Origin: a virus
Length of the DNA: 32,270 bases
Virus record (IMG/VR): IMGVR_UViG_3300049783_001712
Span: 1-32,270 of that record
Direction: 5' to 3' (one strand)
Shown: positions 10,452 to 27,614 of the stretch, piece after piece
Layout of the letters: every line of letters begins with the position of its first letter
Position numbering within the stretch: the first letter of the stretch is position 1
The notes under the pieces: generated by a model
Database searches by the model: none
The model's input: only the letters and a program-made list of their open reading frames with translations
Told to the model about the DNA's origin: nothing
Made by a program: the position numbers and the translations under genes

Positions 10452-11702
10452 ATGAGAAGGTTAACACAAGAAGGGTTCATAGAGAAGTGTAACGAAGTTC
10501 ACGATAATAAATATGATTATAGTTTAGTTGAGTATAAGGGAGTTGGTAATAAAATAGAAATAATATGTCATAAACATGGTATATTTACCCAAGGAGCAAA
10601 GCAACATAAAGAAGGGCAAGGATGTTCTAAATGTAGTGGGAAATATAAAAAAACCACAAAAGAGTTTATAAAAGAATCAAAAAAAATACATGGAGATAAA
10701 TATGATTATAGTTTAGTAGAGTATATTAATAATAGAACACTTGTGAAATTAATTGATAGAGAATATGGATATATATTTGAGCAAAGACCAGAGCATCATT
10801 TAAATGGTTTCTTTTATAATGGATATACGACGGAATCATTTATATTAAAATCAAAGGAAATACATGGAGATAAATATGATTATAGTTTAGTGGAATATAT
10901 CAATTCGAAAACTCCTGTTACGATAATTGACAGAGAATATGGGTTTACATTTAATCAAAATCCTCAACATCATTTAAATGGTCATGGTAGTAGTGGTAAG
11001 ATAACTAAGGATCATTTCATAAAAAAATGTAGTGAAATACATAATAATAGATATGACTATAGTTTAATTAATGAAATATTATCTAACAAAAACAAAGTAA
11101 AAATAATATGTAAAGAACATGGAGAATTTAAACAATCTGTTTCTAATCACATGAATCTGAAACAAGATTGTCCGAAATGTGCTGGTAATTTTCCATATAC
11201 AACAGAATCATTCACCAAAAGATGTGATGAAATCCATAATGGTAAATATGATTATAGTTTAGTAGATTATAAAGGAATTGGTGAAAAAATAAAAATAATA
11301 TGCAATGATCATGGTATTTTCAAACAATCTGCATCAAAACATTTGAATTCAGAACAGGGTTGTCCTGAGTGTAAAACTATATCAAGAGGAGAAAACAAAA
11401 TATCTAAAATATTAAATAAAAATAATATTGAATATATTAAAGAACATTCATTTGAAGATTGTAAAAATATAAATAAATTACCTTTTGATTTCTATATACC
11501 ATCAAAGAATATTATTATAGAATATGATGGAATTCAACATTTTAAGTCTGTTGATTTCTTTGGTGGTGAAAAAGAATTAAAACATAGACAAAAATTAGAT
11601 AAGATTAAGGATAAGTACTGTGAGAAAAACAATATATACCTTATAAGAATTCCCTATACAGAATATAAAAATGTAGAGAGAATTTTAGAAAAAATAATTT
11701 AA
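10452..11702 (+). CDS. Homing-endonuclease-like protein: five zinc-ribbon-like repeats plus Vsr-like nuclease domain
   Basis: The 416-residue protein has five repeats of about 55-60 residues (roughly 5-62, 68-119, 126-178, 186-243, 250-308). Each starts FI-x-K/S-x-x-E-[IV]-H-x-x-[KR]-YDYSL and, in repeats 1, 4 and 5, continues with IC-x-x-HG-x-F and ends with C-x2-C (58-61, 240-243, 304-307). Repeats 2 and 3 have lost the cysteines. These match the repeat family I know as DUF723, common in phage homing endonucleases, where it should bind DNA. Residues 311-416 form a small nuclease domain of the PD-(D/E)xK or Vsr/EDxHD type, with Glu313, Asp346, the E-Y-D-G-I-Q-H motif at 357-363, and a C-terminal strand LIRIPYTEY. 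It should nick or cut a target near its own insertion site. It directly precedes, and is in frame with, the tail-tube-like gene. Confidence 0.85.
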   Translation: MRRLTQEGFIEKCNEVHDNKYDYSLVEYKGVGNKIEIICHKHGIFTQGAKQHKEGQGCSKCSGKYKKTTKEFIKESKKIHGDKYDYSLVEYINNRTLVKLIDREYGYIFEQRPEHHLNGFFYNGYTTESFILKSKEIHGDKYDYSLVEYINSKTPVTIIDREYGFTFNQNPQHHLNGHGSSGKITKDHFIKKCSEIHNNRYDYSLINEILSNKNKVKIICKEHGEFKQSVSNHMNLKQDCPKCAGNFPYTTESFTKRCDEIHNGKYDYSLVDYKGIGEKIKIICNDHGIFKQSASKHLNSEQGCPECKTISRGENKISKILNKNNIEYIKEHSFEDCKNINKLPFDFYIPSKNIIIEYDGIQHFKSVDFFGGEKELKHRQKLDKIKDKYCEKNNIYLIRIPYTEYKNVERILEKII

Positions 11703-23111: not shown

Positions 23112-24254
23112 ATGGAAACAATAACAAAAATTAATGAAACTAAAAAAACAAAAACTATCGAAGCAACAACAACAGCAGCAGAAATTGGAATAGATCCAAT
23201 AAAAGTTCCAGATTGGAGCTATTTTGAAGATGATACAATTACCGACTATGGAGAAAATGATATATTCAAATTAACCGTAGAGAATATACAAGTACCAAAA
23301 CCTGGTCACGTATATGACACGATCTTTATAGGATCAGATGAGACACATTTTTTATTAGATGCAGACTTTAAAGATTTGGTTAGAGTACCAAAAACATCAG
23401 AAGAATCTAATTTCTTCATATCTGCTGAGATTGGAGATACTATACGAGCAGTTGTTATGAAAATAACAGACGAAAGAGAATATTCTATTGATGGTAGCGT
23501 ATCACGAATTCACAGAGAAGAGGCATTTGAAATGTTATCAGATATGAGAGATGATTATTATCTTAATGTAAAGATTGATAAATTAACAGGAGCAGGTTAT
23601 AACTGCACAGTTATGGTTAACGATTGTGAAATAAAATCTTTCTTACCTCAGATATTAGCAGGTGTGAATAAAATACATGATGATGATAAAGAAGAATTGG
23701 TAGGACAAGAATTAGAAATGTGTATCGAATCATATGCAGAAGATAAGGGGACTTGGATAGTTTCTCGTAGAAAGTATCTTAAACAATTAATTCCTGCATA
23801 CATGGATAACTTAGACACAGAAACTGATTATACTGGTAAAGTAACAGGAACAGCTAAGTTCGGTGTTTTCGTGGAGTTCAATGACTGTTTAACAGGAATG
23901 ATACATAGAAGTAATTTAACGAATGAGTTAAAAGAATCTTTCGACGATATTAAACAAGGTGATGATATTACCTTTAATGTGAAAGAAATCATTAAAGGTA
24001 ATAGAATAATTTTAACCCAAGTACACACTACCTCTTTATGGGATACTATATCGATTAACCAAGTGTTAACGGGTACTGTCAAAGAACACAAACCATTTGG
24101 TTCATTGATTATCTTAGATCACGAAACATTAGGACTTATTCATAGTTCGGAACAAACTCCCGATGTTAAAGATTTAAAAAGTGGTGATAAATTAGAAGTT
24201 AAAGTATTAGCTATTAATAGATCAGAACGTAAGATATACCTTAGGAATACATAA
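23112..24254 (+). CDS. Ribosomal protein S1-like protein with four S1 domains
   Basis: The 380-residue protein has four OB-fold S1 repeats: about 65-131, 148-222, 239-303 and 318-379. The third is the clearest (TGKVTGTAKFGVFVEFNDCLTGMIHRSNLT, then GDDITFNVKEI); the fourth has TGTVKEHKPFGSLIILDHETLGLIHSS and KVLAINRSERKIYL. The first two are more divergent. S1 domains bind single-stranded RNA; bacterial bS1 has six and brings mRNA to the 30S subunit, the first two anchoring it. The residues before the first domain are Thr/Lys-rich. An S1-like protein could favour phage mRNAs, which here lack Shine-Dalgarno sites. It could instead be a general RNA-binding protein. A strong terminator follows 27 bases after the stop. 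Confidence 0.85.
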   Translation: METITKINETKKTKTIEATTTAAEIGIDPIKVPDWSYFEDDTITDYGENDIFKLTVENIQVPKPGHVYDTIFIGSDETHFLLDADFKDLVRVPKTSEESNFFISAEIGDTIRAVVMKITDEREYSIDGSVSRIHREEAFEMLSDMRDDYYLNVKIDKLTGAGYNCTVMVNDCEIKSFLPQILAGVNKIHDDDKEELVGQELEMCIESYAEDKGTWIVSRRKYLKQLIPAYMDNLDTETDYTGKVTGTAKFGVFVEFNDCLTGMIHRSNLTNELKESFDDIKQGDDITFNVKEIIKGNRIILTQVHTTSLWDTISINQVLTGTVKEHKPFGSLIILDHETLGLIHSSEQTPDVKDLKSGDKLEVKVLAINRSERKIYLRNT

Positions 24255-24340: not shown

Positions 24341-24649
24341 ATGAAACCAAATTTGAGTAAAATAAAATTAGTAAAAGGGTTGTGCTCTTTAGTTATATAC
24401 GAAATAGTGTACAATAAAGGCTTTCTACGTAGACGAAAAGTAGCTAAGCTAAAAATATGGTACACATTATCTAAGATCCATATAATAGAAATATTAGACC
24501 ACAGGGGATATATTATGGTAGAAAAAAACCCCTTTGATTGTGATTTTAAAGAGGGTGATAAAATATCTGATGTACTTATATGGGCGAATGAAAATAATCT
24601 CACAGAAGCCTTTATTCGAATACAAGGTAAGGGTAATAGAACTCGCTAA
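24341..24649 (+). CDS. Basic unknown protein, 102 aa
   Basis: The gene starts after the terminator with the context agtaattATG and a TTTATATATAA box at 24321-24331. The product is basic in its first half (FLRRRKVAKLKIW) and has an acidic segment (NPFDCDFKEGDKISDVLIW) followed by a helix. No known family is recognised. The overlapping minus-strand frame lacks a good context and is ignored. It overlaps the last four bases of the convergent membrane-protein gene. Confidence 0.6.
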   Translation: MKPNLSKIKLVKGLCSLVIYEIVYNKGFLRRRKVAKLKIWYTLSKIHIIEILDHRGYIMVEKNPFDCDFKEGDKISDVLIWANENNLTEAFIRIQGKGNRTR

Positions 24650-25188
24650 GAGTTTTGTCTAAGGATATTTAATTCATCTACTGTTAAACTACCCAATCCT
24701 GTTTTATTAATCTTATCTAAGATATCATCTATTGATGGAGCAAAAGAATTAGCTATATTGAATTTCTCTGAATCACTGAACATATCATTTTCTTGGTGAG
24801 GTACTAATAAATTATTAGAAAATACACTACCATTTACTTCAGTAATATTAATAAAAATATCATTATAGAAACCATCCACCAATTTATTATATAAATACTC
24901 CATTTTATTTTTATTTTCATCAACCAAATAAATAGTTAATGCATCTTTTATGAACACGCTTACATTCTTAGTATTAATTAAAATGCCTAAATAACAATCT
25001 TTATCATATTGTATCTTAACAAAAGTGTTCTTTCTTTCAATGAATGTGAATGATGAAATATCTGAGTTTATATAAATATCCAATGGTTTATTTAATTTAT
25101 TATATGTGTCATATCTTAGATATACTACCTTAAATATAGCTAATAAAGCGATTCCTAATAAAATTCCTAATATATAATCCATATACAT
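24646..25188 (-). CDS. Membrane-anchored protein with a rhomboid-type C-terminal tail (DUF6576-like)
   Basis: The 180-residue protein begins with a single membrane segment (residues about 4-25, YILGILLGIALLAIFKVVYL) followed by Arg, so the rest should be cytoplasmic. The middle is a beta-rich soluble domain (about 45-125). The last 30 residues, beginning SIDDILDKINKTGLGSLTV and going on to DELNILRQNS, match the short C-terminal tail I know from Bacteroidetes rhomboid proteases (DUF6576: I-L-D-K-I-x-x-x-G-x-x-SLT-x-x-E-x-x-x-L-x-x-x-S). The phage rhomboid encoded 13 bases upstream lacks this tail, so the domain appears to have moved to a separate partner. The function of the tail is unknown; partner or substrate presentation is inferred. 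Confidence 0.75.
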   Translation of the reverse strand: MYMDYILGILLGIALLAIFKVVYLRYDTYNKLNKPLDIYINSDISSFTFIERKNTFVKIQYDKDCYLGILINTKNVSVFIKDALTIYLVDENKNKMEYLYNKLVDGFYNDIFINITEVNGSVFSNNLLVPHQENDMFSDSEKFNIANSFAPSIDDILDKINKTGLGSLTVDELNILRQNS

Positions 25189-25201
25189 TATATATAAATA
25201 T

Positions 25202-25795
25202 TTATCTATGTTTTCTTAAAAAGAATATATAAAAAGCTGAGCCGACTACTGCTCCTGCTACATGAACTAAATGCCCGATCCCATCTAATATGGGAAAAAA
25301 TATATTATATATCTCATACACTAACATAAAACCTACCACAACCCCAAGTTTAGCTGGAATTAAACCAAAGATAAATACTTTTTGTTTTGGGATCATAACA
25401 GCTAAGGCGGTTATGATCCCAAATATAGCACCACTCGCCCCAAGTGCGGGGAGGGTGGGGGTATCAAATACATGAAATGCAATATTTGCTAAAACCCCTG
25501 ATACTAAATACATGGTTAGAAATTTATATTTACCAAATTTAATTTCTATAAAAATACCAAAGAAAAATAGTACCAACATATTCATTAATAAATGGACAAA
25601 ACTACCATGTAAAAAACATGCCGTGAAATACTGAAAAATCCAATGTGATTCTGATGCTACGGGATGTAACATAAATAAGTTAGTAATAAAAGGTGATATA
25701 GATTGTAATATAAATATACCTACGTTAATCATAATTAACATATAAGTCAGATAGATAGAACCCCATCTATCTCTTAATTGGAAATTTTTAAACAT
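25202..25795 (-). CDS. Rhomboid family intramembrane serine protease
   Basis: The 197-residue protein is nearly all membrane segments and carries every rhomboid signature: HGSFVHLLMNML (His63, His68 and Asn72, equivalent to the oxyanion-hole residues His150/Asn154 of GlpG), the catalytic motif GASG with Ser121, and HLVHVAGAVVG with the catalytic His178 and the helix-packing glycines. Six transmembrane helices fit the length. Rhomboids cut membrane proteins within or near their transmembrane segment. The N-terminus (MFKNFQLRDRWGSIYLTYMLIMINVGIF) is like that of Bacteroidetes rhomboids, which suggests acquisition from a host. It lies in the middle of a three-gene operon, 23 bases after the PAS gene and 13 before the tail-bearing membrane protein. 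Confidence 0.92.
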   Translation of the reverse strand: MFKNFQLRDRWGSIYLTYMLIMINVGIFILQSISPFITNLFMLHPVASESHWIFQYFTACFLHGSFVHLLMNMLVLFFFGIFIEIKFGKYKFLTMYLVSGVLANIAFHVFDTPTLPALGASGAIFGIITALAVMIPKQKVFIFGLIPAKLGVVVGFMLVYEIYNIFFPILDGIGHLVHVAGAVVGSAFYIFFLRKHR

Positions 25796-25818
25796 TATGT
25801 GATTTTTTAATGGATTAA

Positions 25819-26673
25819 TTATTCAATGGATTTGATATAATTTAAATACTCTTTATTATGCCAAACCCCAAGATACCCAACTAAGGTATCATTTTGATTT
25901 AACAAAGGTATTAATAAAATATAAGATAATTCAGATTCACCATTCTTTTTTCTGAGATCGGTTTTTTGAATACTAATTAAGTTATCTTCATGAAATAAAT
26001 TTTTATCAGGAAATAACTCAAATATATGTTTCTTATTTATAACCTCATCCACTAAATAACCTGATCGTTTTTCGGCGGTAGTATTAAATTCTGTGATGAT
26101 TCCTTTTATATCTATGGATATTACCGAACCTGGATAAGCATCTAATATTCTATTTTTTCCTGATATAAAGCACCGTAATTTATCACTAAGTTCTAATTCA
26201 TGTGTGATATCACTACCAAATAACATAATCATTTGTTCTTCTTCTAAATTAACAGCACCCCATTTTATATATATCACATCCCCACTATTATTTAAAATTC
26301 TAATTATAATTTCGTTACTATCATCGTTAGTAACACCTTTACATTTCTTTAACTTTTTAACGTACCTCTTGAAAATCTTCACATCATCGGGATGTATATA
26401 ATCTACCATATTAGTTCCAACACACTCCGAGGTCGAACATGATAATAAACTTAATAAACACGCATTAGCTCTTATTAAAGTTTTATCATATCCCATAATA
26501 ACATATGGTAATGGTATTTTATTGAAATATCTAGTTAGTTGGTGTAATTCTTTTTTAATTATTAAATTCTTTGTGATTAATTCTGACTTTAATTGGTCTA
26601 ATATATTTATCACTCCAGTATCAATTGATTTGGAATTTCGCTTTTTTTTGATATTCAATAATTTTCTCCACAT
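25819..26673 (-). CDS. Tandem PAS-domain protein without output domain
   Basis: The 284-residue protein has a basic N-terminus (WRKLLNIKKKRNSK), a helix, then two PAS domains at about 50-158 and 170-275. PAS1 shows PLPYVIMGYDKTLIRANACL, then DYIHPDD and WGAVNLEE. PAS2 is more typical: YPGSVISIDIKGIITEFN, EKRSGYLVDEV, then a LRKKNGESELS-type strand and GYLGVWHN. No histidine kinase, GGDEF, HTH or phosphatase domain follows, so it can only act by binding a partner. PAS domains sense ligands, redox state or light, or mediate dimerisation; the ligand cannot be deduced. It is the first gene of the operon with the rhomboid protease and has an AT-rich box at 26704-26714. Confidence 0.85.
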   Translation of the reverse strand: MWRKLLNIKKKRNSKSIDTGVINILDQLKSELITKNLIIKKELHQLTRYFNKIPLPYVIMGYDKTLIRANACLLSLLSCSTSECVGTNMVDYIHPDDVKIFKRYVKKLKKCKGVTNDDSNEIIIRILNNSGDVIYIKWGAVNLEEEQMIMLFGSDITHELELSDKLRCFISGKNRILDAYPGSVISIDIKGIITEFNTTAEKRSGYLVDEVINKKHIFELFPDKNLFHEDNLISIQKTDLRKKNGESELSYILLIPLLNQNDTLVGYLGVWHNKEYLNYIKSIE

Positions 26674-27140: not shown

Positions 27141-27614
27141 ATGGGAAAACAATATAACATAAGAGCACCTCACGGAATTACATCAAAGTTAATGGCGGTT
27201 AAAGCAATAAAAAGGTTAACAGAGCTAGGCTTAAAAGAGGCTAAGTCTAAAATTGATGATCTACTAGAAGGTGATATACACGTAATGGTAGAATTTAATA
27301 CGAGTGATCTATCCGAGAATGAGATTAAAGAAATGGTTGGAGAAGCACAGGCAGCAGGTGTTGTATTTAGTAATGATAGAGAGAGAAATTTAAATATAGC
27401 ATTAACATTATTCAAAGTAATAGTACCAACTGCAAGAACTCTATATAGAGTTATTACGGGAACATATGAAGTATTAGATAATAATGTCTTGAAATTAAAT
27501 ATAAAAGAGGGCACTAAAGAAGATATCACCGAATCACTTATAGTGGATGAGGAACTAAATAATATGGTTATTGTACTACCATTTACAAATTGCATACTTG
27601 AAGAAAATATATAA
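27141..27614 (+). CDS. Protein with ribosomal L7/L12 C-terminal-like domain
   Basis: Residues about 12-78 match the C-terminal domain of bL12: KLMAVKAIKRLTELGLKEAK, with the GLKEAK core of the factor-binding helix, followed by an acidic linker, a second helix (SENEIKEMVGEAQAAG) and a final strand (VVFSND). In bL12 this domain recruits elongation and release factors to the ribosomal stalk. The L12 N-terminal dimerisation domain is missing, so it could not replace bL12 in the stalk directly. Residues 80-157 form an unrecognised second domain (FKVIVPTARTLYRVITGTYEV). The fold also occurs in adaptor proteins such as ClpS, so a different partner is possible. The gene is the first of a plus-strand run. 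Confidence 0.78.
   Translation: MGKQYNIRAPHGITSKLMAVKAIKRLTELGLKEAKSKIDDLLEGDIHVMVEFNTSDLSENEIKEMVGEAQAAGVVFSNDRERNLNIALTLFKVIVPTARTLYRVITGTYEVLDNNVLKLNIKEGTKEDITESLIVDEELNNMVIVLPFTNCILEENI

Follow-up and report, generated by a model that had tools for sequence, protein, structure and literature searches.

A tail-less rhomboid protease and an adjoining DUF6576-tailed membrane protein encoded in a huge-phage genome fragment

The rhomboid locus and its genes

The window analysed here, meaning the whole stretch of 32,270 bases, is a complete IMG/VR record and is itself a fragment of a phage genome. Three adjacent open reading frames on its minus strand, separated by 23 and 13 bases, encode a tandem-PAS protein, a rhomboid protease and a 180-aa membrane protein (Table 1), and the positions and spacing given for them in the initial annotation are confirmed. 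All three are real genes, because divergent homologues exist in another phage contig, with identities of 29% for the rhomboid, 36% for the PAS protein and 32-33% for the 180-aa protein.

Table 1. Features of the rhomboid locus, in window coordinates
Feature	Position	Strand	Evidence and conservation
S1-domain protein, syntenic marker beside the pair	23112..24254	+	81% identity in L085 and 49% in L032, adjoining the pair in both
102-aa protein separating the S1 gene from the pair	24341..24649	+	Runs convergently into the tailed gene, sharing 4 bases with it; L085 has a similar ORF of 101 aa in this position
180-aa protein with an N-terminal membrane helix, then a strand-rich domain that includes a helix, a linker and the DUF6576 tail	24646..25188	-	Likewise next to the rhomboid in L032 and L085
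DUF6576 tail, residues 152-180, SIDDILDKINKTGLGSLTVDELNILRQNS, plus stop	24646..24735	-	PF20216; motif common to Bacteroidota rhomboids
Tail-less rhomboid protease, 197 aa	25202..25795	-	PF01694; dyad and TM2 residues; GlpG structure alignment
PAS-PAS protein, 284 aa	25819..26673	-	PF00989, TIGR00229; 36% identical homologue in L032, opposite strand

A conserved 1169-aa protein encoded in the window has Mahaphages as its closest relatives, with approximately 49-50% identity over 94% to proteins of LR756502 (642 kb) and LR745206 (635 kb), and the S1 protein is 43% identical to its counterpart in LR745206. Genomes of at least 634 kb have been placed in the Mahaphage clade, named in the same work, with predicted replication in Bacteroidetes (PMC7162821). 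Judged by these protein matches, the window is a piece of a huge phage and a relative of the 634-642 kb Mahaphages. Elsewhere the window encodes a 416-aa HNH/homing-type endonuclease (10452-11702, plus strand; PHROG 559, E=5e-92), probably a selfish gene, and a 157-aa protein (27141-27614, plus strand) with a weak resemblance, in its N-terminal part, to the C-terminal domain of ribosomal protein L7/L12 (PF00542, E=5e-4, below the cut-off). A search for defence systems gave no match.

The rhomboid matches its family profile, PF01694, at 101.9 bits (E=4.6e-29; cut-off 22.6), and solved GlpG structures align to it over residues 7-188. The active-site residues are all present: Ser121 in a GxSG motif and His178 in an HxxG motif, as initially annotated, and also His63, His68 and Asn72 in TM2. 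From its sequence, the protein is predicted to be an intact and active protease. A single-sequence scan of viral contigs with this rhomboid found no relatives, and an alignment of seven rhomboid sequences was too diverse to serve for scanning; the relatives described below were reached by way of the tail. The earlier remark that rhomboids are rare in phages holds only loosely, since more than ten further phage contigs carry one, and the Stenotrophomonas phages DLP3 and DLP5 are reported to encode a rhomboid-family protein (PMC7326821, PMC5834331). The latter resemble the present case in this respect, but they are 96-kb siphophages, and the available portions of those reports describe no tailed partner. 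One further candidate, OR846642 (OR846642.1; L026), was deposited as an Enterococcus phage and was dropped as a phage rhomboid when its surroundings were read as bacterial chromosome.

The 180-aa protein is, as had been proposed, a single-pass membrane protein with a DUF6576 C-terminus, having one N-terminal membrane helix and a match to PF20216 at residues 153-180. The DUF6576 score straddles the Pfam cut-off of 27.3, at 25.5 bits (E=1.5e-5) with the whole protein and 28.6 bits in a search of the DNA, and by tblastn the tail matches nine other viral contigs. No relative with a solved structure was found by sequence; the structure model has low confidence, with a mean pLDDT of 58, and a fold search with it returned no significant match (best E=0.11).

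The PAS protein comprises two PAS stretches (PF00989, E=9.7e-11; TIGR00229 of NCBIfam, E=1.2e-11). In agreement with the initial reading it contains no output domain, only PAS matches exceeding the curated cut-offs of Pfam and NCBIfam, and it is accordingly not classed as a PAS sensor kinase or cyclase. Its predicted structure is too poor for use (mean pLDDT 42), no relative with a solved structure was found by sequence, and a single-sequence scan of viral contigs yielded no relatives. It may sense a cytosolic signal.

The tail and the tandem rhomboid genes of Bacteroidota

The initial annotation had recognised the end of the 180-aa protein as the tail of rhomboids from this phylum, and this is borne out by bacterial loci bearing the exact motif, 79 of 80 of which cluster as one rhomboid family, a result that favours a functional link between the two phage genes. 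The tail was matched in 148 of 148 Bacteroidota genomes, mostly once in each. In the host genomes the tailed rhomboid gene belongs to a tandem pair: among 90 cases in which both genes were visible (five genomes being counted twice), the tailed gene is immediately preceded by a tail-less rhomboid gene in 89, with a median gap of 30 bases. The Ser/His dyad of the tail-less member is intact in all 86 copies. The dyad of the tail-bearing member is intact in 48 of 102 and lost, with many different replacements, in 54; these fractions are not phylum-wide rates, because most of the sample was selected through the tail motif. Nearly all of the Bacteroidota sampled have a rhomboid pair whose tail-bearing member is often dead, and in the open-access literature we found no paper describing the pair and none on DUF6576.

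The phage genes parallel this arrangement in having a tail-less, predicted active rhomboid first and a tail-bearing membrane protein second, with a short gap between them. They differ in the second gene, which in the phage encodes no rhomboid, but one membrane helix and a small unrelated domain. Neither phage protein is therefore a DUF6576 rhomboid of the kind encoded by the second host gene, as no rhomboid match was obtained for the 180-aa protein and the rhomboid lacks the tail. The tail had been described as missing from the phage rhomboid. It is indeed absent, but the upstream gene of the host pair is normally tail-less too, so the phage protein need not be truncated. In a tree of rhomboids, the window copy and the tail-less host rhomboids lie on the same side; because support is weak (78/86) and branches are long, we claim no origin for it.

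Three host genomes (L220, L222 and L223) encode an 81-aa single-pass protein bearing the tail, either in place of a rhomboid or in addition to one. Like the 180-aa phage protein, it combines an N-terminal anchor, a cytosolic linker and a C-terminal tail on a polypeptide separate from the rhomboid, and it provides a precedent for such a partition that favours the paired reading of the phage genes; unlike the phage protein it has no middle domain, and in L220 and L222 it is not encoded beside a rhomboid. In these two genomes its gene lies in a run with the end of an ileS-like gene and TraR/DksA-like and lspA-like genes, all named by eye. By the same inspection, an endonuclease/exonuclease/phosphatase-like membrane gene comes after the host pair in L135, L158 and L211, and the end of a mutL-like gene comes before it in L211.

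Conservation of the gene pair and distribution of the tail in phages

The rhomboid and tailed genes are adjacent in all three members of the window's lineage, which favours their being a pair. In L032, a 145-kb contig, the same 229-aa, 123-aa and S1 genes are followed by the rhomboid, by the tailed protein after a gap of 10 bases (13 in the window), and then by a PAS gene encoded on the other strand; in L085, a 22.6-kb contig, the tailed gene adjoins the end of the rhomboid gene, which is cut off there by the contig boundary. LR745206 and G015 likewise encode a tailed membrane protein upstream of the rhomboid, at a distance of one to three genes; its proximity speaks for a pair, and the reversed order relative to the window and the lack of adjacency speak against one. 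Also unfavourable is that no tailed gene was found near the rhomboid in LR756502, L271 and L272, in which the rhomboid occupies the same slot as in LR745206. A lone rhomboid is present in LR756504, G017 and others, and none was matched in LR756501, LR756500, Lak, PAU or pT24. Given the tail density of each record, a tailed gene is expected so near a rhomboid by chance with a rough probability of about 4% for LR745206, 6% for G015, 3% for G010 (L032) and 1-4% for the window. These are two independent cases rather than five, because the window, L032 and L085 constitute one lineage and G015 and LR745206 another. A second tail-bearing family, soluble and of approximately 192 aa (L032:4324-4902, L064:5521-6096, L100), is also encoded near rhomboids in three phages, at a distance of 48 bases in L032 and about 6 kb in G015 and LR745206.

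Conservation of gene order, which the initial annotation had put forward as a check on all three genes, therefore extends to the neighbourhood of the rhomboid and the tailed protein, which recurs in two phage lineages, and not to the trio with the PAS gene. That the PAS sensor, the rhomboid and the partner form one regulated three-part module, as originally proposed, would explain the clustering of all three genes both in the window and in L032, with proteins that share only 29-49% identity between the two phages. In L032, the only relative with a PAS gene, that gene is on the opposite strand, however, convergent with the pair and sharing 4 bases with the tailed gene, and no PAS_9 match was found in the rhomboid-bearing LR745206, LR756502 and LR756504; the L085 contig stops short of the PAS position. 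On account of the opposite strand in one relative and the lack of a PAS_9 match in the 634-642 kb phages, the three-gene operon is not conserved and the sensor/protease/partner module is not supported, being the weakest of the readings considered and very improbable. Superinfection exclusion, receptor removal and lysis timing, the roles suggested for it in the initial annotation, are neither favoured nor disfavoured by the results. The PAS protein is probably a neighbour of the pair and not part of its core.

The tailed proteins of the two lineages also resemble each other outside the tail. Because searches with the whole 180-aa protein were swamped by tail matches, the tail was removed from the query. 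When the middle domain, without tail and membrane helix, was compared between the window lineage and the tailed protein of G015/LR745206, the match had P=2e-4, and the 33 comparisons made as controls, with other phage proteins that bear the tail, all gave P of at least 0.097, a result favouring the pair. Within the membrane helix, ILG...G is invariant in four of five relatives and two glycines are kept in all five; in the window protein basic residues follow the helix, and the predicted topology places the N-terminus outside and the C-terminus inside. Such a topology, a glycine-containing helix conserved to this extent, the basic residues after it and a gene adjoining that of the protease would all suit a rhomboid substrate, whose cleavage would release the cytosolic domain with the tail. 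We consider it improbable that the 180-aa protein serves in this way, given that the equivalent tail-bearing host protein is itself a rhomboid and that the tail is fused to the rhomboid in one phage (L083/G007), a fusion that favours instead a partnership between the two proteins.

The tail itself is distributed far more widely than the pair. Its motif, DDILDKIN..G..SLT..E...L, is C-terminal in about 30 distinct phage proteins and near the start in a few; LR745206 has six tail matches, LR756502 five, LR756501 four and LR756504 one, and none was found in Lak, PAU, pT24 or LR756500. Against the paired reading, a rhomboid scores over the cut-off in only 4 of 23 other tail-bearing contigs, which are fragments and in some cases near-duplicates. 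The tail is thus not specific to phage rhomboids or to a rhomboid partner, and it can work without a phage rhomboid, because about 30 other phage proteins bear it, most of them in rhomboid-free contigs. These observations lead to the main rival explanation, according to which the tail is a general docking tag that huge Bacteroidota phages put on many proteins, at either terminus and four to six times in each of three genomes, to gain access to, or titrate, the host rhomboid itself or the host factor to which its tail binds. The 180-aa protein would then lie beside the rhomboid since both act at the membrane, and contact between them would not be required. The near-restriction of the host tail to one rhomboid also fits such a tag. 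It does not readily account for tailed proteins of one architecture lying by or near the rhomboid in two lineages, at a rough chance of about 1-6% per genome, and we regard it as a possible but rather unlikely explanation.

Possible roles of the rhomboid and its tailed partner

The simplest reading that uses all of the observations is that the core of the locus is a two-gene unit, a predicted active rhomboid and a single-pass membrane protein with a DUF6576 tail, which mirrors the Bacteroidota pair and whose products work together; we place its probability at roughly 45%. Apparently the phage has rebuilt a gene pair conserved in bacteria, with the tail moved to a separate protein, so that a small anchored protein would replace the tail-bearing, often catalytically dead host partner. 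The two phage proteins would cooperate, presumably as a complex, in the inner membrane, where the rhomboid may cut membrane proteins of the host or of the phage. The cytosolic domain and tail of the partner could serve as an adaptor, recruiting the host factor that is normally bound by the tail of the host rhomboid. By analogy, such an arrangement would resemble YqgP of B. subtilis, a rhomboid that acts both as a protease and as an adaptor for FtsH (PMC7231995), in coupling proteolysis to an adaptor for another machine; in YqgP, protease and adaptor are one and the same protein.

Should the phage pair prove functional, the cytosolic module of a rhomboid would be supplied by a second protein, and the phage would possess a route for editing the host membrane proteome. 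Phages that bear the tail on many proteins also offer a handle on tail binding and on the role of the host pair. A broader view would join the paired unit with the tagging of many proteins: huge Bacteroidota phages would have taken the tail of a near-universal, often dead host rhomboid as a portable tag, and one tagged protein would rebuild the host pair in two pieces, giving the phage control of a membrane-protein surveillance hub so far undescribed for the phylum. We consider this combined view doubtful.

Two further groups of tail-bearing phage proteins were encountered. A protein of approximately 460 aa is frequent among viral contigs, at about 20 loci (L030-L059), and has no PHROG match. 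In the proteins with an N-terminal motif (L007, L096, L097, L109 and L117), the motif is closely preceded by a short leader, for example MKHLMRYE or MKYVKTFE, and this leader with the DUF6576 motif could be a packaging or targeting leader.
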